DNA of 45,830 nt from a candidate division WOR-3 bacterium (lineage in GTDB: Bacteria; Hydrothermota; Tepidihabitantia; Tepidihabitantales; Tepidihabitantaceae), in the NCBI GenBank assembly GCA_016867815.1, contig VGIR01000013.1:1-45830 (forward strand), in the 5' to 3' direction. Each line of letters begins with the position of its first letter. The first letter of the stretch is position 1. Positions 2,180-43,795 of this stretch are shown here, piece by piece. The translations under genes were made by a program, and so were the position numbers. Below the pieces are notes generated by a model, which had not been told where the DNA came from, did no database searches, and saw only the letters and a list, made by a program, of their open reading frames with translations.

Positions 2180-3862
2180 ATGCACACCATGATTCTCGTG
2201 GTTCTGACCGCGATTAGTCTCAATTCCAACATCGACTCGGTCGTCGTCTATCCCGACCAGGCGATGGTAATCCGCCGGGCGTCCGTCGAGGTCGGCGGCT
2301 CGACCCAACTGTCGTTTCCCGACCTGCCGGGTATCCTCGACGACAACTCGGTCCGCATCCGCGCTCCCGGACTGAAGCTCGGCGAGGTGCAGGTGAAGCC
2401 GGGTTACCTCTCCGAGCCGACACCGCGGGTGAAGCTGCTGGCGGATTCGCTGGCGCGGGTTGACCGCCGGGCCAAGGTGATGGCCAACGAGAAGGCGATG
2501 CTTCAGGCCAAGATGGAGTTCCTGAGATCGGTGAAGGCGGCCGGGCCGGACCAGATGTCGAAGGAGGTCTCCGGCGGCAAGGTGGACCCGAACAACTGGT
2601 CCGCGGCCATCGGCTTTCTCGGCACCCAGATGATGGCGGTAGGTAGCCGCCAGCTCGACCTGGAAGAACAGGAGTCGGAGCTTTCCCGCGTGCGCCTGGC
2701 CGTGGCGCAGGAGCTCGCCGACGTGAGAGCACGGGTGGAGAACCGGAAGACAGTGACGGTTGACGTCGTGGCCGACGAGACGAAGGAGTACAGCATCACC
2801 GTCAGCTACCGGGTGCCGGGCGCGGTCTCGTGGGAGCCATACTACGAGTTGCGGGCACGGCCCGCCGACGAAACGGTGACCCTCGCCTACTACGTCCGGA
2901 TGGAGCAGAGCACCAACGAGGACTGGAACGGCGTGGCGATGATGCTCTCGACGGCGCGGCCTTCCGCCGGCGGCGTCGCGCCCGAGCCGCGGCCGTGGTA
3001 CGTGGACGTGGCCGAGGCCCAGAGCTACAAGCTGATCGAAAGGCAGAGGGGCAACCTGGACGTGAGGCAGTTGAGCGATCTCGTCGGAATGCAGGCCGGC
3101 GCGACCCAGGGTCGGGGTGGAAGGATCGACGACGTAGCCTACCTCGTGGACGGGGCAGTCGCGCTCGAGGCCGGCATCTCGCTCCAGTATGCGATGCCGG
3201 GCCGTATCACCCTCAAGAGCGGAGAGGACCCGAAGAAGTTCTTCCTCACCGACACGAAGATGGGAGCAGACTTCAGCTACTACGCCTACCCGCGGGTGCG
3301 TACTTCTCCCTATCTGCGTGCGAACGTGCAGAACGGCTCCGACTTCGTCTTTCTGGCCGGCAAGGCGAACACCTATGTCGGCGACGAGTTCACCGGCACC
3401 ACCACCCTCGCCAACATCGCGCCGGGCGAGTCGGCCAGCCCCAGCTTCGGCGTGGACGACCGGATGAAGGTGCAACACCAGCGGACCCGGCTCCTCACCT
3501 CACGCACCGGCCTTTTCACGAGACGCACCCGGACCGAGTTCGAGTTCAAGACCACGATCGAGAACTACCACACCAAGCCGGTAACGATGACGCTGGTCGA
3601 GCAGATTCCGACGTCGGCCAACACCGACATCAGGGTGAGCCTGACCAGGCTCGAGCCCAAAGGGTGGGTAGAGAACAAGGATAACGGCACCTACACCTTC
3701 ACGTTCGAGATGAAACCGCAGGAGAAGCTCACCGTGAACATCGCCTATGCGGTCGAGTACCCCACTGCGACGAAGATAGCCGGGCTGTTCGACGCCATCA
3801 ACCCGGCCCGTTCGCTGGAGCTCAACCGGATGTACGACGAACAGCAGATGAAGAAGAGGTAG
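2180..3862 (+). CDS. MuiA-like DUF4139 domain protein
   Basis: A 560-residue protein that matches the mucoidy-inhibitor-A-like family in layout. An N-terminal DUF4140-type segment (about residues 10-105, beginning with the VVVYPDQAMVIRRA pattern) is followed by a coiled-coil-prone linker (about 95-190, rich in K, E, R) and a C-terminal DUF4139 beta-rich domain (about 195-550). The family has no established biochemical activity; the name comes from an effect on mucoidy when a fragment was expressed in another species. The start at ATG 2180 has a strong AAGGAGG site. The first residues are hydrophobic but short, so export is uncertain. An insert with a GRGGR stretch near residue 310 interrupts the DUF4139 part. 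The gene is transcribed alone from its own promoter. Confidence 0.85.
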   Translation: MHTMILVVLTAISLNSNIDSVVVYPDQAMVIRRASVEVGGSTQLSFPDLPGILDDNSVRIRAPGLKLGEVQVKPGYLSEPTPRVKLLADSLARVDRRAKVMANEKAMLQAKMEFLRSVKAAGPDQMSKEVSGGKVDPNNWSAAIGFLGTQMMAVGSRQLDLEEQESELSRVRLAVAQELADVRARVENRKTVTVDVVADETKEYSITVSYRVPGAVSWEPYYELRARPADETVTLAYYVRMEQSTNEDWNGVAMMLSTARPSAGGVAPEPRPWYVDVAEAQSYKLIERQRGNLDVRQLSDLVGMQAGATQGRGGRIDDVAYLVDGAVALEAGISLQYAMPGRITLKSGEDPKKFFLTDTKMGADFSYYAYPRVRTSPYLRANVQNGSDFVFLAGKANTYVGDEFTGTTTLANIAPGESASPSFGVDDRMKVQHQRTRLLTSRTGLFTRRTRTEFEFKTTIENYHTKPVTMTLVEQIPTSANTDIRVSLTRLEPKGWVENKDNGTYTFTFEMKPQEKLTVNIAYAVEYPTATKIAGLFDAINPARSLELNRMYDEQQMKKR

Positions 3863-6018: not shown

Positions 6019-7017
6019 ATGCTCTACCGTGACGCCGGCGTCGATATCAATGCCATGGACGCGGTCAAGCGTCGGATCGCAGGCATCGCCCGTTCAACCT
6101 ATGGACCGCAGGTCCTCTCCGAAGTCGGCTTGTTCGGGTCGCTCTGTCGGGTACCGAAGATGCGCGACCCGGTGCTGGTCGGCAGTTGCGACGGCGTGGG
6201 CACCAAACTGGTCGTGGCCCGGCTCTGCGGCCGCTACGACACAGTCGGCATTGACATCGTCAACCACTCGGTCAACGACATCCTGACGCTCGGGGCGCGG
6301 CCGCTCTTCTTTCTCGACTACATCGCCCATTCGAATCTCGCCCCGCAATCCCTGCTCGAAATCGTCAAGGGCCTGGGCAGGGCCTGCCGTGACAACAACT
6401 GCTCGCTCGTCGGCGGGGAAACCGCGATGATGCCCGACATCTACAAACCCCGTGACTTCGACCTGGCCGGCTTCATCGTCGGCACGGTCGAGCGGCGCCG
6501 GATCACGAACACCCAGAGCATCTCGCCCGGCGACGCGGTCATCGGCATACCTTCAAACGGACTCCACACCAACGGCTATTCCCTCGCGCGCCGCGTGCTC
6601 TTCGACAAAGCCGGGCTCAAAGTCAACTCGCGAGTCAAAGGTCTCTCCCGCCCGATCGGTGAAGAACTGCTCCGTCCGCATCGCTCCTACCTGAAGCCGG
6701 TCTATCCCCTGCTCAGCCGAATTCACGCGCTTGCCCACATCACCGGTGGCGGCTTCGCCGGCAACATTGGCCGTCTCCTGCCCGACGAGGTCTCTGTCAT
6801 CATCCACAAGTCGAGCTGGCGTCCGCTGCCGATCTTCCGTCTGATTCAGCGGCTGGGGGACGTGCCGGACGAAGAGATGTATCAGACGTTCAACATGGGG
6901 ATGGGCATGGTGCTCATGGTGGCGCCGACGCAGGTAGACCGTCTCCTCGGCTCGATTCCGGGCAGCCGCGTTATCGGCAAGGTCGTCCGCGGCACCTTCG
7001 GCGTCTCGGTCATCTAG
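6019..7017 (+). CDS. purM: Phosphoribosylformylglycinamidine cyclo-ligase
   Basis: AIR synthetase, the fifth step of purine synthesis: it closes the imidazole ring of FGAM using ATP. The protein is 332 residues, normal for PurM. It shows the N-terminal YRDAGVDI start, the GSCDGVGTKL substrate and metal loop (residues about 55-64), VNHSVNDILTLGA (about 81-94), GGETAMMPD (about 136-144) and the glycine-rich SNGLHTNGYSL segment (about 178-189). GAAAGG precedes ATG 6019. It follows the secreted peptidase in the same direction without an obvious promoter of its own, an odd functional pairing. purD lies 37 kb away on the other strand, so purine genes are dispersed here. Confidence 0.96.
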   Translation: MLYRDAGVDINAMDAVKRRIAGIARSTYGPQVLSEVGLFGSLCRVPKMRDPVLVGSCDGVGTKLVVARLCGRYDTVGIDIVNHSVNDILTLGARPLFFLDYIAHSNLAPQSLLEIVKGLGRACRDNNCSLVGGETAMMPDIYKPRDFDLAGFIVGTVERRRITNTQSISPGDAVIGIPSNGLHTNGYSLARRVLFDKAGLKVNSRVKGLSRPIGEELLRPHRSYLKPVYPLLSRIHALAHITGGGFAGNIGRLLPDEVSVIIHKSSWRPLPIFRLIQRLGDVPDEEMYQTFNMGMGMVLMVAPTQVDRLLGSIPGSRVIGKVVRGTFGVSVI

Positions 7018-7320
7018 GCGGGGACCGGGGATCAGGGATCAGGGACCGGGGCGCCGGAATCCGGCCCGAGCAAAGACATCCGGGTTTACCGCGACTTGAA
7101 GGTTTGGCAGGAGGCAATGACCCCGGTGCGGCTCACCTACAAACTAACCAAAGAACTGCCACGCAATGAAGAGTTCGGGCTGTCGCACTTGATCAGTCTG
7201 GACTGGTCGGCAGATTGCTGAAAGCTCTCATCCGAGCACTGAGCACAAGGCAAGCGGGCTAACCATAGCGTTCCGGCCGTCCGTTCTCCCCCGAACCCCG
7301 ACCCCCGATCCCGCTTGGGG
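7018..7320. repeat. Low-complexity inverted-repeat element carrying a dead IVP-family gene
   Basis: The left arm (7018-7055) repeats GGGATCAGGGA/GGGACCGGGG words. The right arm (7288-7320) is made of their complements, CCCCGA/CCCCCGATCCC. The arms enclose a broken four-helix-bundle reading frame. The whole lies exactly between the stop codons of purM and the convergent recombinase gene. Confidence 0.6.
7075..7221 (+). pseudogene. Remnant of a four-helix-bundle (23S rRNA IVP family) protein
   Basis: An in-frame stretch of 48 codons reads DIRVYRDLKVWQEAM..., with a later KELPRNEEFGLSHLI segment. This is the typical N-terminal half of the four-helix-bundle / S23 intervening-sequence protein family (vWq.A in helix 1, then P..E.fGL before helix 2). 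It stops at TGA 7219-7221, where the family would continue with a third and fourth helix (about 70 more residues), and it has no start codon or ribosome site. Family members are found inside 23S rRNA intervening sequences and as freestanding genes; their role is not established. I judge it a truncated relic. Confidence 0.75.
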
Positions 7321-8298
7321 TTATCCGCGCGGGTGGAAAGTCCGGTGGGTTTCTCTCAGATACTCACGATCAACGTGGGTGTAGATCTGGGTGGTGGCGA
7401 TGCTCGAGTGGCCGAGCATCTCCTGCACTGCCCGCAGGTCCGCACCACCTTCGAGCAGGTGGGTGGCGAAAGAGTGGCGGAGCGTGTGCGGGGTGACGCG
7501 ACGTTTGATTCCGGCCAGCGCCACACAGGAGCGGAGAATCTTGAGGAACCCCATCCTTGACATCCTGCCGCCGCGATGGTTCAGGAACAGGCTGGGGCTC
7601 GTCTTCTTCCCGGCGTAGTGGGGCCGGGCCGCGCTCAGGTAGTCGCGCACCGCGCTGAGCGCGGGCTGTCCGACCGGCACGACCCGTTCCTTGCTGCGCT
7701 TGCCCATCACCCGCAGGAACCCGTCCGCGAGCGCGATGTTCGAGGTCACAAGGCCCAGGAGTTCCGACACCCGGAGCCCGCTCCCGTACATCACCTCCAG
7801 CATCGCCCGGCTGCGCAGAGCCCAGAAGCGGTCCGGCGCGCTGCCCGCCGCTTCTATCAGCTTCGCTATCTCGTCCTGGGTCAGGACGCTCGGCAGCTTG
7901 CGGCGTTGCTTGGGCAGGTCGATGTCGTCGGCCGGGTTTGCCGCCAGATGCTGTTCGGACGCAAGGAAACGGTAGAAGAGCCGGACCGACACGAGCTTGC
8001 GCGCAACCGTCGTGGTGGCGAGCCCGGCGGCACCGAGTTGTCGCGCGTAGTCGTGAAGCGTCTTCCGGCTGGTTTCAGCCGGGCGCAGGGCAGTTTCCGG
8101 CATGGCGAGGAAGAACTGCTTCAGGTCGGCAAGGTAGCAGTCGGCCGACCCGCGGGTGACGCTCCGCTCGACCAGCAGGTAGTCGGCGAACCGCTCGAGC
8201 AGCCGGTCTGCCGAGTCAGGAAGCCGGGGACTCGATTTCCGACCGGCTGACGACCGTGTCGCGTTTGTACCGGTCGTCCGGGTTCGGGTGGTCTTCAT
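7321..8298 (-). CDS. xerD: Tyrosine recombinase of the XerC/XerD type
   Basis: Site-specific recombinase, probably for resolving chromosome dimers or for a mobile element; the sequence does not tell XerC from XerD. In 325 residues it has the SAM-like core-binding domain (about 30-118) and a catalytic domain with the full set R176 (GSGLRVSELL), K200, H271 and R274 (HTLRHSFATHLL), H297 (LGHSSI) and nucleophile Y306. The N-terminal 28 residues are basic and low in complexity, extra to the family. ATG 8298 makes the gene overlap the 3' end of nadB by 83 bases. No ATG, GTG or TTG lies close to the start of the core domain, so this start is kept. No phage or integron genes lie nearby, so a housekeeping role is likely. 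Confidence 0.92.
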   Translation of the reverse strand: MKTTRTRTTGTNATRSSAGRKSSPRLPDSADRLLERFADYLLVERSVTRGSADCYLADLKQFFLAMPETALRPAETSRKTLHDYARQLGAAGLATTTVARKLVSVRLFYRFLASEQHLAANPADDIDLPKQRRKLPSVLTQDEIAKLIEAAGSAPDRFWALRSRAMLEVMYGSGLRVSELLGLVTSNIALADGFLRVMGKRSKERVVPVGQPALSAVRDYLSAARPHYAGKKTSPSLFLNHRGGRMSRMGFLKILRSCVALAGIKRRVTPHTLRHSFATHLLEGGADLRAVQEMLGHSSIATTQIYTHVDREYLRETHRTFHPRG

Positions 8299-9847
8299 TG
8301 TAGTGCAGGCCTCTCGACTCTAGCCTCCTGATGGCGCATTCGACGACGAGTAGTGACGCGGCCAGCAGGTTGCGGAGCTCCATGGCGGCGACCGTCTGCC
8401 CGGTCCTGTCGCCCTCGCCTGCCAGCTTCATGAGTTCGCGTCGGGCTTCGGCCAGGCCGGCATCAGACCTGACAATCCCGGCGTACTGCCACATCAGGTC
8501 CTGCAGGCGCTGTCTGAGTCCCGCGACAAGTTCAGACCCGGAGTCCGGGACCGGAGACCGGAGACCGGAGTTGAGTTCCGGACCGCGAACTCTGAACTCT
8601 GGACTCTGGACTCTGGAATCTGAGCTCTCCACGGCTCTTTCCGCTGCCCGGTCCGCCATCACGAGCGCTTCCAGGAGCGAGTTCGAAGCCAGCCGGTTCG
8701 CGCCGTGCAGTCCCGAACAGGCACACTCGCCCGCAGCATAGAGCCCCGGGACCGAAGTCTCGGCCCAGTCGTTCGTCTCGATTCCACCACAGATGTAGTG
8801 TGCTGCCGGCACTACCGGTATCGGCTGGCGCGTGATGTCGATGCCGAGTCTCAGGCAGGTCCGGCTGATGTTGGGAAACCGCTCGCACAGCCGCCTGGGA
8901 TCAAGGTGCGTGGCATCGAGCAGGACATAGTCTCCTCCGCGTTGCTTCAGTTCCGTAGCTATGGCCCGCGCCACTACGTCGCGCGGCGCCAGATCCGCAT
9001 CCGGGTGATAGGCGGGCATGAATGCGTGGCCGTCGCGAGTCCGGAGAACTGCGCCCTCTCCCCGCACCGCTTCGGAGATGAGAAAGGCGCGGCCCTCCAG
9101 CAGATGTCCGTAGAGCGCGGTCGGGTGGAACTGGACGAACTCCATGTTGGCTATTCTCGCGCCGGCCCGGTAGCCCATGGCGACACCGTCACCGGTGGCA
9201 ATCCGCGGGTTGGTGGTGTGCAGCCAGGCCTGACCTGCGCCACCGGTAGCCAGCAGGCAGACCCGCGCGCCGGCTATCTCAACCGTTCCGCTCGACGTAT
9301 CGAGAACGCGGGCGCCGCAGCAGCGCCCGCTATCGTCCAGGACCAGATCGACCGCGAAGTGCTCTTCGAGCATCGTGACGTTCGGGTTTGACCGGACTGC
9401 CCTGAGCAGCCCGTGCTCGATCTCGGCGCCGGTGAAGTCATGGGCGTGGACGATGCGCCGGCGCCGGTGCCCGCCCTCCTGCCCGAGGTCGAAGTGCTCA
9501 TGGCCCGAGGCGTCGGCATAGGTGTTGAAGGGCACGCCGAGGCTGAACAGCTCGCGGACCAGCCCCGGCCCGCCTTCGGTAACGAGCCGGACCAGATCAG
9601 GATGCGCGATGCCGCCGCCGGCCCGGATCGTGTCCTCGCAGTGGAGCCGGGCACTATCATCGGTCTCGACCGCGGCGGCGATTCCGCCCTGGGCATAGTT
9701 GGTATTCGACTCGGTGTCCGCCTTCTTGGTGACGAGCAAGACCGAGCCGGTCCGGCTCACGCGGTGCGAGAACCAGAGCCCGGCCATGCCGGAACCAATG
9801 ACGAGGAAGTCGACCCTACGCGATGATTCGGGAAGTCCGTGATCCAA
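8216..9847 (-). CDS. nadB: L-aspartate oxidase
   Basis: Flavoprotein that oxidises L-aspartate to iminoaspartate, the first step of de novo NAD synthesis; it would need NadA, which is not in this window. The 543 residues include the FAD-binding VIGSGMAGL (about 16-24), the TESNTNYAQGGIAAA segment, HRRRRIVHAHDFTG near the active site, and AAGECACSGLHGANRLASNS near residues 370-390. The start is a TTG with little extra sequence before the FAD motif. Residues about 404-440 are a foreign-looking low-complexity insert (SRVQSPEFRVRGPEL...) encoded by a copy of the intergenic inverted repeats. It lies at the junction between the capping and C-terminal helical domains and keeps the frame. Confidence 0.94.
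   Translation of the reverse strand: MDHGLPESSRRVDFLVIGSGMAGLWFSHRVSRTGSVLLVTKKADTESNTNYAQGGIAAAVETDDSARLHCEDTIRAGGGIAHPDLVRLVTEGGPGLVRELFSLGVPFNTYADASGHEHFDLGQEGGHRRRRIVHAHDFTGAEIEHGLLRAVRSNPNVTMLEEHFAVDLVLDDSGRCCGARVLDTSSGTVEIAGARVCLLATGGAGQAWLHTTNPRIATGDGVAMGYRAGARIANMEFVQFHPTALYGHLLEGRAFLISEAVRGEGAVLRTRDGHAFMPAYHPDADLAPRDVVARAIATELKQRGGDYVLLDATHLDPRRLCERFPNISRTCLRLGIDITRQPIPVVPAAHYICGGIETNDWAETSVPGLYAAGECACSGLHGANRLASNSLLEALVMADRAAERAVESSDSRVQSPEFRVRGPELNSGLRSPVPDSGSELVAGLRQRLQDLMWQYAGIVRSDAGLAEARRELMKLAGEGDRTGQTVAAMELRNLLAASLLVVECAIRRLESRGLHYNEDHPNPDDRYKRDTVVSRSEIESPAS
8526..8637. repeat. Low-complexity inverted repeat inside nadB
   Basis: One half (8530-8584) repeats GGAGACC/GGAGTCCGG words. 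The other half (8586-8632) repeats AACTCTGGACTCT words, roughly their inverted complement. The total length keeps the nadB frame open and encodes residues about 404-440. This is the same class of sequence found between genes elsewhere in the window. Confidence 0.65.
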
Positions 9848-9942: not shown

Positions 9943-10605
9943 CTAGAATCGGTAGCAGACTTTGATGCCGGGCTCGGCGTCACCGGGACGGAACTCGACC
10001 CGGCCTGCCGTTCCTTCACGGCCGGCAAAGAATGCGCAGTCTATGAAGCTGACGAGCCGATTGAGCACCAGAGCTCCGACCGCAAACTGCGCGTTCAGCG
10101 CCGCATCCCGGCCCGCCCGCCTCGTCCCCCAGTAGCGGACGCGAGCCGAGTCCGAACTCCAGTTCCAGGCCTCCGAACCGAAGTATCCCTCGTTCAGGTA
10201 GTACGCGTGCTGGCGTTCCGGATCATCAGGGAAGATGTCCCGGGCATCAGACCTTACTTCCTCGTTGTACTCGTCGGCATTGTCGTACCTTTCCAATGCC
10301 CGGTAGTAGCTCAACTTCCTGACGGTCAGGTCAGCGCCGGCCTCGCGCCCGGCAAAGAGACGAGCGTCTCGCTCCCGGGCCGAGCCGTACCAGGAGAACC
10401 CGGACCAGAGCGCCCAGAGCGTGCCGTCCAACCAGAGCAGGGCTTCGCCACGCTTCGCGCTGCCCAACATCATCTGTCCCGTCCCGGGCAGCGCCAGGGA
10501 CGCAAGGATGGCGCGGCCGCGAGGGGAAGATTTCGGCGCGGGCGAACCGACTGCAGGCTGGACTGCTACTGCCAGTGCGAGAAACGTGCTCAGCATCATA
10601 GTCAC
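9943..10605 (-). CDS. Small exported or membrane protein with LPGTGQ motif (DUF5683-like)
   Basis: A 220-residue protein starting with GTG 10605, five bases beyond the stop of the preceding repeat protein, so translation is probably coupled. Residues 1-21 form a signal peptide or first membrane segment. Residues about 30-75 carry the pattern SLALPGTGQMMLGSAKRGEALLW-like, shared with small membrane proteins often annotated as DUF5683 or P-loop-free TM2-like domains (proline/glycine turn, GQ, then a second hydrophobic helix). The middle is charged, with many Y, R and D. A final hydrophobic stretch (about 168-190) may re-enter the membrane. Function is unknown. The context as third gene after two secreted proteins suggests an envelope role. 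Confidence 0.7.
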   Translation of the reverse strand: MTMMLSTFLALAVAVQPAVGSPAPKSSPRGRAILASLALPGTGQMMLGSAKRGEALLWLDGTLWALWSGFSWYGSARERDARLFAGREAGADLTVRKLSYYRALERYDNADEYNEEVRSDARDIFPDDPERQHAYYLNEGYFGSEAWNWSSDSARVRYWGTRRAGRDAALNAQFAVGALVLNRLVSFIDCAFFAGREGTAGRVEFRPGDAEPGIKVCYRF

Positions 10606-10609
10606 TCTC

Positions 10610-13405
10610 TCATTCTACAATAACTTTGCGACACTCGGAAGCGACACCGCTCCTGGTGACCAGGAAGTACGTGCCAGGACTGATACCGTGCAGGTCGATG
10701 GCAGATCGGTCTGCATTTGCCGCCTGTCTCACCTGCCTGCCGGCAGCATCGTAGAGCGAGGCGCACCCGCCCGGGTCCTGCCGACTGACCTCCAGCCGCC
10801 CGTACCGCCCCAGGATACTCTGCCGGCCCGTGGCCCTCGTCTGCAGTCCGTGGTTTCGCGCCTCTTCATCGACGCCGATCAGGTCCCAGTCAGTCAGCTT
10901 GGCATAGATGTCAAAACCCTTGTGACGGCGGTTGTCGGCCCAGGTGAATGCCAGTACCCCGTTGCCGGCAACGACACTCTGCCCGACCGTCCAGTGGTGG
11001 TTGTTCGGAAACAGCTTGGGCTCATTCACCATCTTGTTGAAGCTGATGCGCGCGCGGGCCGAATCGAATCTCTGGCAGTAGATCTGCGGGTTGCCGGGGA
11101 AGTCCCGCTCATCGTTGAACTCCACGGCCAGCCTGCCATCCGGAGCGTACGCACAACTGGGCGAGTAGGCGTCCCCGGCTGCCTGATTGTCGTTGACCCG
11201 CTCGTTGTCGCCGATTCTCGTTCCGGCCGAATCAAACCACTGCACGTACACGTCATACGCATCTCTCCTCGTATCCTCCCAGGCCACGGCAAACCGGCCC
11301 CGCTCATCAATCGCGCACGACGGATAGCCGTGATACGTGCCGTCCGGGTCTGTGTTCACCCGGATGTTGCTGCCGATGCGTGAGCCGTCAGCCCGGAAAG
11401 CCTGGCAGTAGATATCCGAGGCCCCGGAACGATAGTCCATCCAGGCGGCAACGAAGCGCCCGCTCCTGTTCATGGCTGCGCTGCCGTAGTACCCGTAGCC
11501 GGCTGTGTCCTGCACCGCAAACTCCGGGCCCAGCGGGTTGCGGCTGTAATCGTACCTGCGGCAGTACATCTGGTTCGGACCGCCACGCGAATCCATCCAG
11601 AGAACGACCGCGTTGTTGCCTGAGTCCATCGCCACGTACGGATACCATTGGGACGCGCTCGCCCCGTCGGAGTTGACCAGGAAGTTGGGGCCAACCGCGC
11701 TTCCGCCGGCATCCAGGTACTGCGCGTAGATATCGGTGGAATCCGACCCGGCCCGCATGTCGGTCCAGGCGGCAAGAAACAGGCCGGCACCCCCGGCCAC
11801 ACTCGGGTAGTACTGCGGCGCTCCACCCGGACCGTCACCATTGACCCGCAGGTTTGCCCCGAGCAGATTCCCGGCTGCGTCGGTGACACACCGATAGATG
11901 TCGCTGGCGCCGTTCCGCTCGTCCTCCCAGGCAATGCAGATGGCGCCGGCTGCGTCCATGCCGATGGACGGGCAGCGCTGCAGCGCGCTGCCGCGGTCGT
12001 CGTTGATGCGGAAGTTGGCGCCGACCTTGCTGCCGTTCCGGCTGAGACGCTGGCAGTAGATGTCGTGGTTGCCGGAACGGGCGTCGGCCCAAACCACCCA
12101 GTATCCACCGTCGGGACGCGCCTCGATGCTGGGGTTCATCTGGCTGCCGGTACTCACATCGCTCAACCTTAAGCCGAGTCCCTGCGGGACTCCGCCCGCG
12201 TCGTATCGCCGCCCGTAGACGTCATCCTCACCATTCCGGCCGTCGGTCCACACCACGATGAACTCGCCGTACTTGTTCACGGCTGCTCCGGAACCGTGCT
12301 GGCCGGTGCTCCCGTTGTCATCATTGACCCGGAAGTTTTGGCCGCGAGGATTGCCGTCGTCACCGTAGCGCTGACCGTATACATCCCAGTTGCCGTTTCG
12401 CGCGTCGTCCCAGGTAACGACGAACTCACCTCCTGCTCCGCAGGCCACGTCCGGGGTCCACTGGGTGCTGACGTCGGTAGTGACCTTGACATTCGCGCCG
12501 ATCCGCTGGCCCTGGGAGTTGAATCGCTGATAGAAGACATTCCAGTCCATGCTTCCCTGGCCCCTGCCATCCATCCAGGCTACCGTGAACCTGCCCGAGC
12601 TGTCACCGGAGACCTCGGGTTCGTACTGGTTCGCGTACCCGATCTGGTCGTCATTCACCCGGAAGTTCGTGTCCAGCGGCGTGCCGTCGGGATTGAAGAA
12701 CTGCGCGAATATGTCACCGGTCAGGCCGAACCTCCGGTCATCCCACGCCAGCAGGGTAACGCCGCCGGGCGACGTCCACGCCCCGGAAATGCTCTGGTCG
12801 CCACCGGCTGCGGAATCGCTGACCCGCGAGTTGTCTCCCAGGCGCGCGCCGGCGGCGCTGAACCGCTGCGCGAAGAGATCGGAGTTGCCGATGTCTCTCC
12901 GGTCTTCCCAGCAGAAAAGGGACTGGCCGTCCGGCCGCATCGCGCTCGACGGGTCTCCCTGCCATCCCATGGTGATGTCGGTGTTCAGGCGTCCGTTCGC
13001 TCCGATCAGGTTCCCGGCCGAGTCCAGCCTCTGGTACCAGGCGTCTGCGTCCCCATCGCGGAACTCATACCAGCTCACCACGAAGTTGCCCGAACCATCC
13101 ACCGCGAGCTTCGGCGCCAGCTGTTGGCAGCCGCTCGCCGTATCGTCGTTGAGGACAAAGTCGTTCTTGATTACGCCGTCGGCGCCCGGTCCCCCGCTCC
13201 ACGCCCCGCCCGCCTCGCCCCGCTGTGTACGCCGAGGCGGCTGTGCCAGCCCGCGCGGCAACGGCCTCGGGTTTTCGGGAGTTCGCATCACGGCGAGCTG
13301 GCCATAGCGGCCCGGATCTGAGGCCACCGGCCCAGCCAGTGCCACGGCCGCAGCCAACGTGGCTGCAAGCAGGCCGGTCTGCAACCTGCGATCTGCAATC
13401 CGCAA
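10610..13405 (-). CDS. Secreted protein with fourteen ~50-residue repeats and sorting domain
   Basis: A 931-residue exported protein. After a signal peptide (TTG start; hydrophobic residues about 11-30), residues about 90-850 contain fourteen tandem units of roughly 50 residues. Each has a core like fvvaW.DeR.G..DiY.QrfD, then G..iG.N.rvN.D. The repeated W.D.R and D.Y.Q blades suggest one or two large beta-propellers or a beta-solenoid; the Asp-rich N.D loops could bind calcium. Residues about 860-931 form the C-terminal sorting domain (SLYDAAGRQV... GISPGTYFLVTR). The ribosome site AAGGTAGG overlaps the stop of the M6 peptidase gene. The first codons and part of the signal peptide lie in a word-repeat segment (GCGGATTGCAGATCGCAGG). 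Ligand and role are unknown. Confidence 0.85.
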   Translation of the reverse strand: MRIADRRLQTGLLAATLAAAVALAGPVASDPGRYGQLAVMRTPENPRPLPRGLAQPPRRTQRGEAGGAWSGGPGADGVIKNDFVLNDDTASGCQQLAPKLAVDGSGNFVVSWYEFRDGDADAWYQRLDSAGNLIGANGRLNTDITMGWQGDPSSAMRPDGQSLFCWEDRRDIGNSDLFAQRFSAAGARLGDNSRVSDSAAGGDQSISGAWTSPGGVTLLAWDDRRFGLTGDIFAQFFNPDGTPLDTNFRVNDDQIGYANQYEPEVSGDSSGRFTVAWMDGRGQGSMDWNVFYQRFNSQGQRIGANVKVTTDVSTQWTPDVACGAGGEFVVTWDDARNGNWDVYGQRYGDDGNPRGQNFRVNDDNGSTGQHGSGAAVNKYGEFIVVWTDGRNGEDDVYGRRYDAGGVPQGLGLRLSDVSTGSQMNPSIEARPDGGYWVVWADARSGNHDIYCQRLSRNGSKVGANFRINDDRGSALQRCPSIGMDAAGAICIAWEDERNGASDIYRCVTDAAGNLLGANLRVNGDGPGGAPQYYPSVAGGAGLFLAAWTDMRAGSDSTDIYAQYLDAGGSAVGPNFLVNSDGASASQWYPYVAMDSGNNAVVLWMDSRGGPNQMYCRRYDYSRNPLGPEFAVQDTAGYGYYGSAAMNRSGRFVAAWMDYRSGASDIYCQAFRADGSRIGSNIRVNTDPDGTYHGYPSCAIDERGRFAVAWEDTRRDAYDVYVQWFDSAGTRIGDNERVNDNQAAGDAYSPSCAYAPDGRLAVEFNDERDFPGNPQIYCQRFDSARARISFNKMVNEPKLFPNNHHWTVGQSVVAGNGVLAFTWADNRRHKGFDIYAKLTDWDLIGVDEEARNHGLQTRATGRQSILGRYGRLEVSRQDPGGCASLYDAAGRQVRQAANADRSAIDLHGISPGTYFLVTRSGVASECRKVIVE

Positions 13406-17252: not shown

Positions 17253-17255
17253 CGA

Positions 17256-17342
17256 AAGGTTCTGGGGTTCCGGGGTTCTGGGGCTCTGGCTCTTGGCCCT
17301 GACCCGAGCCCGTGAACCCTTGGACCCTTGAACCCCTGCTTC
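17256..17342. repeat. Low-complexity inverted repeat between tRNA-Arg and tadA
   Basis: Left arm 17256-17294 repeats TTCTGGGG/GGGGTTCCGG words. Right arm 17311-17342 repeats GAACCC/GGACCCTTGAACCCC, roughly complementary. It fills the whole spacer between tRNA-Arg and tadA and contains no ribosome site, so it shapes the leader of tadA. Confidence 0.6.
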
Positions 17343-21225: not shown

Positions 21226-21364
21226 TGAACCGCCAAGACGCCAAGGGGACAGAAACGGAACCCTACCACAAAGACACCAAGACACGAAGGTCCGGACGGA
21301 TTGGAGCGGCCCGGGTGCCTGCTGCCGGTCGGATTGTCTTTGTGCCTTTGTGTCTTGGTGGTGA
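21226..21364. repeat. Low-complexity inverted repeat between GDT1 gene and truD
   Basis: Left arm 21265-21290 (ACCACAAAGACACCAAGACA...) and right arm 21337-21362 (...CCTTTGTGTCTTGGTGGT) are inverted, about 80 percent complementary, around a loop of about 46 bases. A related word (CCGCCAAGACGCCAAGG) precedes the left arm. The left arm is nearly identical to the copy at 19109-19133. Confidence 0.75.
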
Positions 21365-22540: not shown

Positions 22541-22697
22541 GAAAGGGATAGAGAGATAAAGGGACAAAGGGATCGAGGGCGAAGGAGAAAGTTCCAAGGG
22601 GCAATGCACAAGTCCGGACTCTGCCATTTCCACTTCGTGCTTTCTACTTTGGCTCTTCGGCACTCTATCCCTCTATCCCTATGTCTCTTTGTCCCCT
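22541..22697. repeat. Low-complexity inverted repeat overlapping the start of the next gene
   Basis: Left arm 22541-22575 is built of GGGATAGAG and GGGACAAAGG words. Right arm 22664-22697 is CTCTATCCCTCTATCCC and CTCTTTGTCCCC, their complements. The interior 22612-22635 matches the nadB-upstream element. The right half is translated as the N-terminus of the gene starting at 22604. Confidence 0.75.
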
Positions 22698-42692: not shown

Positions 42693-42783
42693 GGAGTCAG
42701 CTATCAGCAGTCAGGAGTTGGCAGCACATCGAATCGTGGGGCTGACTCCTAACCCCTGACTCCTGACTCTTAGCTCCTAACTT
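42693..42783. repeat. Low-complexity inverted repeat upstream of acyl-CoA dehydrogenase
   Basis: Left half (42693-42722): GGAGTCAGC and GTCAGGAGTTGG. Right half (42740-42783): GCTGACTCCTAACC and CCTGACTCCTGACTC words. TAGCTCCTAACT (42771-42782) recurs exactly at 16660-16671. The right end supplies the last codons and stop of the next gene. Confidence 0.75.
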
Positions 42784-43795
42784 CACCAATGCCGGCTCGG
42801 TGTCTCACTTCCGCGGCCACCCGCTCCAGCGCCGGCTTCATCACCTCTCGTGTCAGGCGATAACACTCGATGGAGAAACCAACCGGGTCATCAACCTTCT
42901 CGTTCCGACCTACATACGACAGCAGCAGCCGGGTTCGCCGGGCCGCATCCGCCGCCAGGTCGGCGACCCGCTGGCGGTGGTACTCCTCCATCACCAGCAC
43001 CAGATCGGCAGCCGCCAGCATACTCTGCGAAACCTGCTGCGCGCGGTGCCGGGTAAGGTCGAGTCCAGCTTCCCGCATCACCTCGACCGCATTCGCGGCT
43101 GCCGGGCTTCCCACGGGCGCGTCGGTGCCCGCCGAACCGACGAACGCCGGAGTCCCCTCCAGCATGTTCGCCAACATACACATGGCCATCGGGCTGCGGC
43201 AGGAATTGCCGGTGCATAGTACGAGCACGGAAAAGAACAGGCCCGGGCCCATCACGACCAATTCCCCGAGCAGCTGCTCAACGTCAAGTATTCCCAACTT
43301 TCCCCGCCTGTCAATCACGACCGGGCGTAGACTGAAATCCAGTCCCGTCGGCCCCGGCCCACCCGCGTCACCCGTGACGACAATCGAGGAGCGATTCCCG
43401 AGTTCGTCGGCCAACTCGCCCGGCTCGGCGCTCTCTGCCGGCACACCGATCCAGACATCTCCTTCTGCCCGCCGCAGGATCTCCCTCGCCAGCGGTTCGG
43501 AAGCCAGTGCCTGACCCGGCTGGTCGGCAACCAACCTCGCGACCAGCGGCTCGGCCATGGCCTTCAGCACCCTCTCCTGCAGGGACGCCTCAAGCCCGGC
43601 CGTGGATGCCGCCAGCATCTCCGCCGTCACCATCCGGTATGGCTCGCCAAGACCGGCGAGCGCCTCGCGCTCGCGGGCGAGTACGCAATACCCGCCGAGC
43701 ATCGGGACAACCGCCACGCCGCTGCGGAGCGCGCCGGCAATCTGCCCGGCCAGGTCAGCCGGGTTCTTCTGCTGGAGTTTAACGAACTTCGGCAC
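42770..43795 (-). CDS. Fusion of a degenerate YrdC/Sua5-like domain and a low-molecular-weight phosphatase
   Basis: A 341-residue protein. Residues about 1-180 follow the YrdC/Sua5 fold outline (threonylcarbamoyl-AMP synthase), but the usual signatures are eroded: where PTETVYGL is expected there is VPMLGGYCVL, and the conserved KRP/SRPS substrate residues are not evident. Residues about 189-341 are an intact LMW protein-tyrosine-phosphatase domain with the P-loop CTGNSCR (C194-R200) and the acid D302/D303 in VDDPVG; arsenate-reductase-like use is also possible. It lies three bases after purD and is co-transcribed with it. The last codons (EVRS) and the stop lie in a repeat element. The YrdC part may be a binding module rather than an enzyme. 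Confidence 0.8.
   Translation of the reverse strand: MPKFVKLQQKNPADLAGQIAGALRSGVAVVPMLGGYCVLAREREALAGLGEPYRMVTAEMLAASTAGLEASLQERVLKAMAEPLVARLVADQPGQALASEPLAREILRRAEGDVWIGVPAESAEPGELADELGNRSSIVVTGDAGGPGPTGLDFSLRPVVIDRRGKLGILDVEQLLGELVVMGPGLFFSVLVLCTGNSCRSPMAMCMLANMLEGTPAFVGSAGTDAPVGSPAAANAVEVMREAGLDLTRHRAQQVSQSMLAAADLVLVMEEYHRQRVADLAADAARRTRLLLSYVGRNEKVDDPVGFSIECYRLTREVMKPALERVAAEVRHRAGIGEVRS

Follow-up and report, generated by a model that had tools for sequence, protein, structure and literature searches.

A decayed IVP gene between inverted heptad arms points to a widespread family of small mobile elements

The DNA analysed here (the window, 45,830 nucleotides) lies on contig C13 of the assembled genome of a candidate division WOR-3 bacterium (G000; 3.37 Mb in 215 contigs). 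Between purM and xerD, it carries the remnant of a four-helix-bundle gene of the IVP (S23) family (PF05635/TIGR02436) enclosed by inverted arrays of 7-nt units. This site is likely to be what is left of one small mobile element from a family that is very widespread. The best explanation for the family as a whole, which we hold with reasonable but not full confidence, is a mobile element of ~0.45-0.6 kb made up of a heptad or octad arm, an IVP gene, and the inverted arm.

Results

A decayed IVP unit between purM and xerD

The element occupies the gap between purM (6019..7017, plus strand; TIGR00878, E=7e-109) and the convergent xerD (7321..8298, minus strand; TIGR02225, E=3.9e-99). On the plus strand, the left arm (7019..7057, GGGGACCGGGGATCAGGGATCAGGGACCGGGG) is a purine-rich heptad array of the units GGGGACC/GGGGATCA/GGGATCA/GGGACC with 20 of 24 matches at lag 7, and the right arm (7285..7317, plus strand, CCCCCGAACCCCGACCCCCGATCCC) is its inverse, a pyrimidine-rich array of period 7 with 16/24 matches and a purine fraction of 0.27. 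The first ~38 codons of the gene lie at 7075..7188 (plus strand) and match PF05635 under the cut-off (E=6.4e-5, match 7090-7188); the match is confined to profile positions 1-33 because 181 nt of the intact gene have been lost. Alignment to the intact orthologue of the sister species G002 places the deletion junction at GGCTGTC (7178..7184, plus strand), the loss being bounded by short direct repeats CTGTC/GGCTGTC at offsets 105 and 286 of the G002 open reading frame, with loss of the frame. The last ~24 codons (7185..7253, plus strand; G002 orthologue GLVGRLLNALIRALNPR) are retained but shifted out of frame, and the 48-aa frame of the relic falls into the four helix bundle/PRK12275 group (NCBIfam). 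The first-pass annotation had recognized such a relic between arms and convergent housekeeping genes, and this is borne out; it had also described the relic as the N-terminal half of the protein, which is right for the N-terminal part but not for the extent, since C-terminal codons are kept and the loss is internal.

At the same purM-xerD junction, the sister species G002 and G005 carry intact 119-aa IVP genes with both arms in the same flavour, so that the intact copies with the same arms that the annotation had proposed to look for do exist. On the other hand, the junction is geneless with a short GAACCC-type array in G004, and is at most ~50 bp long and armless in other genera (G008, G007, and G015). 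Taken alone, the window copy has an inverted-arm score of 17, which is not significant against random sites (p ~0.08), whereas the intact copies of G002 and G005 score 21 and 22, the random-site 99th percentile being 20. The significance of the inverted arms thus stems from the family and not from the single window copy.

Inverted arms of period 7 or 8 bracket most IVP genes of the host genome

Flanks were inspected at all 27 PF05635 places of the host genome, of which 22 are above cut-off. Nearly all intact IVP copies are closely bracketed by low-complexity inverted arms, the absence of which would have refuted the first-pass proposal. When the upstream flank was compared with the reverse-complemented downstream flank of the same locus, ~17/27 were at or near p<=0.01 against random sites; mismatched pairs, in which the upstream flank of one locus was set against the downstream flank of another, gave a mean score of 12.1 and a maximum of 25. 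The arms consist of degenerate 7- or 8-nt units in tandem, with a median of 5 units on each side, a value that depends on the threshold chosen. Among strongly periodic flanks, the top lag was 7 in 31, 8 in 6, and 14 in 4, and almost never any other.

The flavour of the arms is locus-specific, for example GTGGTCTA at L006, GTCAAAG at L020, GCCAAAA at L022, and GGGGTTA at L011, with IVPs of the L006 type forming an octad clade (AGTGGTCT) and those of the L020 type a heptad clade (GTCAAAG). A single common arm sequence family was rejected, as arms do not match between loci; the arms are therefore not members of one repeat family, as had been supposed, but follow a common 7/8-nt format with a motif that differs from locus to locus. 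Generic genomic low complexity was also rejected as their source, by the lag spectrum (7 and 8 only) and by IVP-free sister genomes. Heptad arms were not found at L023, L024, and L026 of the host genome, which belong to a divergent four-helix group (RSRTHDQMVQAARSGxQNIAEG), so a PF05635-like gene need not have arms. IVP genes are also clustered in places, with five within 16 kb in G003 (C109:81107-97094, L094) and further clusters in contigs C15 and C61 of the host genome.

Gene and arms form one unit

Upstream arms are purine-rich in 63/69 cases and downstream arms pyrimidine-rich in 50/59. Higher protein identity goes with more similar arms, and this holds after pairs with >60% identity are dropped (Mantel p=0.002). 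Furthermore, period 7 or 8 follows the protein tree and not the host, with 7 changes compared with 40 for shuffled labels. Gene and arms thus form one unit, with arms that match within a locus, a motif and period inherited by clade, and a fixed polarity. Plain co-inheritance explains the correlation between protein and arms; recognition of the arms by the protein would fit too but is not proved. Among IVP orthologues at the same site, dN/dS is 0.05-0.19, and the protein is therefore kept by purifying selection.

The same polarity is found in gene-less arrays of the host genome that have an inverted partner (27 with the same polarity and 2 with the opposite one, although a pair may count twice), and gene-less palindromes of this polarity are relatives of IVP units. 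In the window, where no strand is assigned to them, gene-less palindromes include one with octad arms of the GGGATAGA type, purine left and pyrimidine right, at 22541..22697 (inverted score 26, the best in 446 kb), octad pairs GGGGTTCT/AACCCTTG at 17254..17342 (partner score 16 both ways) and CAAGACAC/GTGTCTTG at 21266..21363 (partner score 16-17), and a heptad pair CAGGAGT/ACTCCTG at 42697..42784 (partner score 13-14). The first-pass picture of empty palindromes needs correcting in one respect, as the majority of arrays in the host genome are unpaired.

Other repeats occur nearby. A period-7 heptad palindrome at 8537..8630 (no strand assigned) lies in the reading frame of nadB (8216-9847, minus strand) and is translated as a linker of L-aspartate oxidase. 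Other heptad flavours are found at the same linker in G002, G004, and G005, with none evident in G003 and G008; a recent species-specific event was rejected, since each of three sister species shows a heptad flavour of its own at this linker. This arrangement is reminiscent of the in-frame palindromes of Rickettsia. Separate palindromic repeats of 50-65 bp, ~90-96% conserved, are dispersed genus-wide in WOR-3, and some of them also occur in sister genera (L090:5745-5796; L088:11995-12051, 10565-10614, and 3179-3245); unlike heptad arms, they keep one sequence.

IVP units come and go at orthologous sites

The L004 site consists of just 10-11 bp in G001, G002, and G008, is filled in G000 and G003 by a unit of 448-500 bp whose arms are of the GATCGAGA type, and in G004 and G005 by another IVP (54% identical) whose arms are GGGTTCA. 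At L006, the gene is present in G000, G001, and G005, a gene-less palindrome of the same flavour in G003 and G004, and a gene-less palindrome of another flavour in G002. Occupancy patterns at L002, L001, and L018 are similar. IVP units therefore come and go at orthologous sites, and their copy number ranges from 0 to 31 within one bacterial family. At the bare and filled WOR-3 sites compared, neither a target duplication nor an outer terminal repeat was recognized, so the case for mobility in this group rests on presence and absence.

Across 20 genomes (that of the window and 19 relatives, without phylogenetic correction), the number of period-7/8 arrays per 100 kb correlates with IVP density (Spearman 0.88, p=2e-7), whereas control lags give 0.31, which is not significant; apparent arrays in one stretch of G007 were runs of N and were removed from the counts. 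Within genera, genomes with 0 IVP have 1.3 and 0.0 arrays per 100 kb, compared with 16.8 where a genome of one genus has 7 IVPs and 1.7-3.0 where those of the other genus have 1-2.

These data bear on the possibility that the palindromes are independent simple-sequence elements, the arms being a target and IVP genes inserting into the loops or surviving best there. Such a reading, which is unlikely but worth keeping in mind, would accommodate the far greater number of gene-less arrays than of genes, the presence at one and the same site of different IVPs with different arms (L004) or of a gene-less palindrome of another flavour (L006 in G002), and the location of the Coxiella 23S intervening sequence (IVS) in rRNA helix 45 (PMC4990558), but it does not explain why the motif and period of the arms track the protein clade across phyla or why arrays are nearly gone from IVP-free sister genomes. 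The short bare L004 sites also hint that arms arrive with the gene, and in Desulfobacterota, as described below, the target duplications enclose the arms too, and gene and arms move together. We therefore favour a mobile unit that comprises both.

Inverted arms flank IVP genes in many phyla and on cyanobacterial plasmids

Scanning GTDB contigs with one IVP protein yielded 80 loci, of which 77 were scored; the use of a single query biases this survey toward relatives of that protein. The loci span WOR-3, Desulfobacterota, Nitrospirota, Patescibacteria, Bacteroidota, Planctomycetota, Elusimicrobia, Chloroflexota, Cyanobacteria, and others. Inverted scores of at least 20 were obtained at 39/77 loci and at 2/286 shifted positions taken from the same loci as controls, and scores of at least 22 at 29/77 and 0/286, respectively; lag 7 or 8 was the top period in 81 flanks. 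Beyond the host genome, the flank check that the first-pass annotation had called for thus gave inverted arms at about half or more of the 77 loci, as well as at most of 12 IVP copies on cyanobacterial plasmids. For example, GGGAGTA arrays face TACTCCC on a Nostoc edaphicum plasmid. Because these plasmid records are mostly complete and come from cultured strains, the pattern is no metagenome artefact. The only clear exception to inversion is a Pseudanabaena galeata plasmid (L293), where the arms AAAGCTA/AAAGCCA, of at least 10 units, run in the same direction on both sides. IVP units are also found among CRISPR-cas genes (cas6/cas4, cas10/cmr3) on three cyanobacterial plasmids (L293, L300, and L301).

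Terminal repeats and target duplications enclose gene and arms in Desulfobacterota

Desulfobacterota copies that lie beside different genes have common outer ends beyond the arms, GGATCATCTCC on the left and the inverse of GGTTCTTCTCC on the right (pattern GG[AT]TC[AT]TCTCC). Gene and arms are enclosed there by terminal inverted repeats and 8-bp target duplications, the hallmarks of a DNA transposon or of a unit resembling miniature inverted-repeat transposable elements (MITEs). Among 16 copies with both ends, the flanking 8 bp are identical in 6/16 and match at 7 or more positions in 9/16, with a mean of 6.5 of 8; mispaired flanks average 3.2 of 8 and reach at least 7 in 0.8%, and shifting the flanks by 1-3 bases leaves 0 exact matches. 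A 21-bp palindromic end pattern has ~50 and 48 copies in G031 and G035, respectively, and the reversed control has 0. Some copies in these two genomes have a GC-rich hairpin (GCCCGCC...GGCGGGC) inserted within the arms.

Gene-bearing copies measure 535-581 bp, internally deleted copies 220-377 bp, and bare palindromes 96-128 bp, and some of the internally deleted copies retain both gene ends, as the window copy does. Desulfobacterota copies thus lose the gene by internal deletion and end as bare palindromes. Full, deleted, and bare copies with common ends are a direct view of what the first-pass annotation had only surmised, namely that empty palindromes are derivatives that lost the gene; in WOR-3, the L006 and L002 sites and the polarity of gene-less pairs are consistent with the same course. 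Together, the terminal repeats, the 8-bp duplications, and the gene-deleted copies with the same ends lead us to conclude that small mobile elements are the vehicles of freestanding IVP genes. The earlier suggestion that these genes travel on palindromic elements is supported further by the arms in the host genome, in other phyla, and on plasmids.

Enclosure of the unit by target duplications and terminal repeats is difficult to reconcile with arms that are merely an RNA processing or regulatory hairpin, of the RNase III style, around a resident, non-selfish host gene moved by ordinary recombination only. This we consider very improbable, even though RNase III cuts out IVS RNA (PMC4990558), the protein is under strong purifying selection, and the fixed purine/pyrimidine polarity would suit a transcript hairpin; the patchy occurrence among congeners, with 0 to 31 copies in one family, also speaks against it. 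As outer repeats and duplications were seen in Desulfobacterota only, and gene-less copies there retain the same outer repeats, it is also conceivable, if quite unlikely, that the ends of an ordinary insertion sequence picked up an IVP unit on a single occasion and that the resulting cargo-bearing MITE multiplied, the units elsewhere being static and sharing arms by descent alone. However, site occupancy is patchy inside the WOR-3 genus, units sit on numerous plasmids of cyanobacteria and, in many phyla, between the genes of operons, and no parent insertion sequence was found for the Desulfobacterota ends, ISL3 being the sole candidate tested. An ISL3 transposase was considered as mover because an 8-bp duplication suggested it, and was rejected, as the sole full copy in G031 lacks these terminal repeats and G035 has no ISL3. 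We therefore retain the mobile unit of arm, IVP gene, and inverted arm.

Discussion

How such units would move is a matter of inference, both for the binding of the protein to its own repeat units and for the identity of the moving enzyme. To our knowledge, IVP contains no known transposase motif, which is why a separate strand-transfer enzyme is invoked. The one solved relative by sequence is 2gsc, X. campestris XCC0516 (E=8.9e-21), and XCC0516 is a homopentamer (PMC4990558). We propose that an IVP homopentamer ring may bind the arms of its own element, each subunit taking one of the roughly five 7- or 8-nt units of an arm, in the form of either hairpin RNA or the DNA ends of the element. Binding would promote survival or movement of its own element and, in trans, of gene-less palindromes, whereas strand transfer would be left to an enzyme as yet unidentified. 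By analogy, the system may operate in the manner of a RAYT/REPIN or MITE pair whose partner protein binds nucleic acids.

In RAYT/REP (REPIN) systems, one gene family is flanked by palindromes, and many gene-less palindromes occur in the genomes that hold the gene. IVP genes differ in encoding a PF05635 four-helix bundle and not a known HUH (Y1) transposase, in having arms that vary from locus to locus, and in their many copies per genome. Like MITEs, the Desulfobacterota units are short and have terminal inverted repeats, target duplications, and internal deletion derivatives, but a complete copy has, in addition to repeat arms, a conserved gene that does not encode a transposase, and a parent insertion sequence has not been found. 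Avd of diversity-generating retroelements belongs to a related four-helix-bundle family (weak match to NF033474) and works together with a reverse transcriptase; a reverse transcriptase was rejected as a partner of IVP, as RVT_1 has 0 matches in G000 and G005.

The closest likeness is to the 23S IVS of Coxiella burnetii, in which inverted terminal repeats surround one S23p ORF of the same protein family; GACAGAT heptamers in tandem precede this ORF, and the stem is 28 bp long (PMC4990558). For Coxiella, S23p is reported to be in decay and probably not produced, whereas the present units are freestanding between protein genes, have lineage-specific heptad/octad arrays on both sides, and carry a gene under purifying selection. 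An S23 ORF between inverted repeats, one criterion for an IVS, is met by the window unit; a position inside a 23S rRNA gene is not, since the element lies between purM and xerD and rRNA genes are absent from the window. It is therefore not filed as an IVS, the most fitting name being a freestanding IVS-like mobile unit, and units of this type probably represent the 23S rRNA intervening sequence in freestanding form.

Intergenic 7-nt arrays resembling IVP arms have been described elsewhere: (GGGAATC)n in Xanthomonas, GGGGA(T/C)T in Nostoc, and TAACTGA in Beggiatoaceae, cyanobacteria, and Bacteroidetes, according to the accessible portions of two reports (PMC4692102, PMC4679880). In those portions, X. 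campestris pv. campestris ATCC 33913 is credited with ~186 GGGAATC arrays, including 70 convergent inverted pairs, of unknown origin and generally with no link found to mobile elements (PMC4692102), heptamer repeats are patchy and apparently horizontal in distribution (PMC4679880), and no link to S23 genes is drawn (PMC4692102, PMC4679880). Our own search, limited to open-access literature, turned up no publication that connects IVP genes with heptad arms, and given this scope the lack of one is weak evidence. The present analysis shows the link between heptad arrays and IVP genes in WOR-3, in many phyla, and on Nostoc and Calothrix plasmids. We predict that (GGGAATC)n arms flank XCC0516 on either side in X. 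campestris. More tentatively, it is possible that IVP/S23 pentamers are sequence-programmed nucleic-acid binders with a clade-specific 7/8-nt unit and arms of about five units, a selfish pair that would seed gene-less palindromes in trans and would be the origin of the heptamer arrays in cyanobacteria, Xanthomonas, Beggiatoaceae, and Bacteroidetes.

From a broader point of view, these findings join two orphans, an abundant and unexplained four helix bundle/S23 protein and the unexplained intergenic heptamer repeats, and remains of IVP elements may explain many such repeats in bacteria. They also make the origin of 23S intervening sequences testable and predict that recognition follows a 7/8-nt rule, which is open to direct assay.
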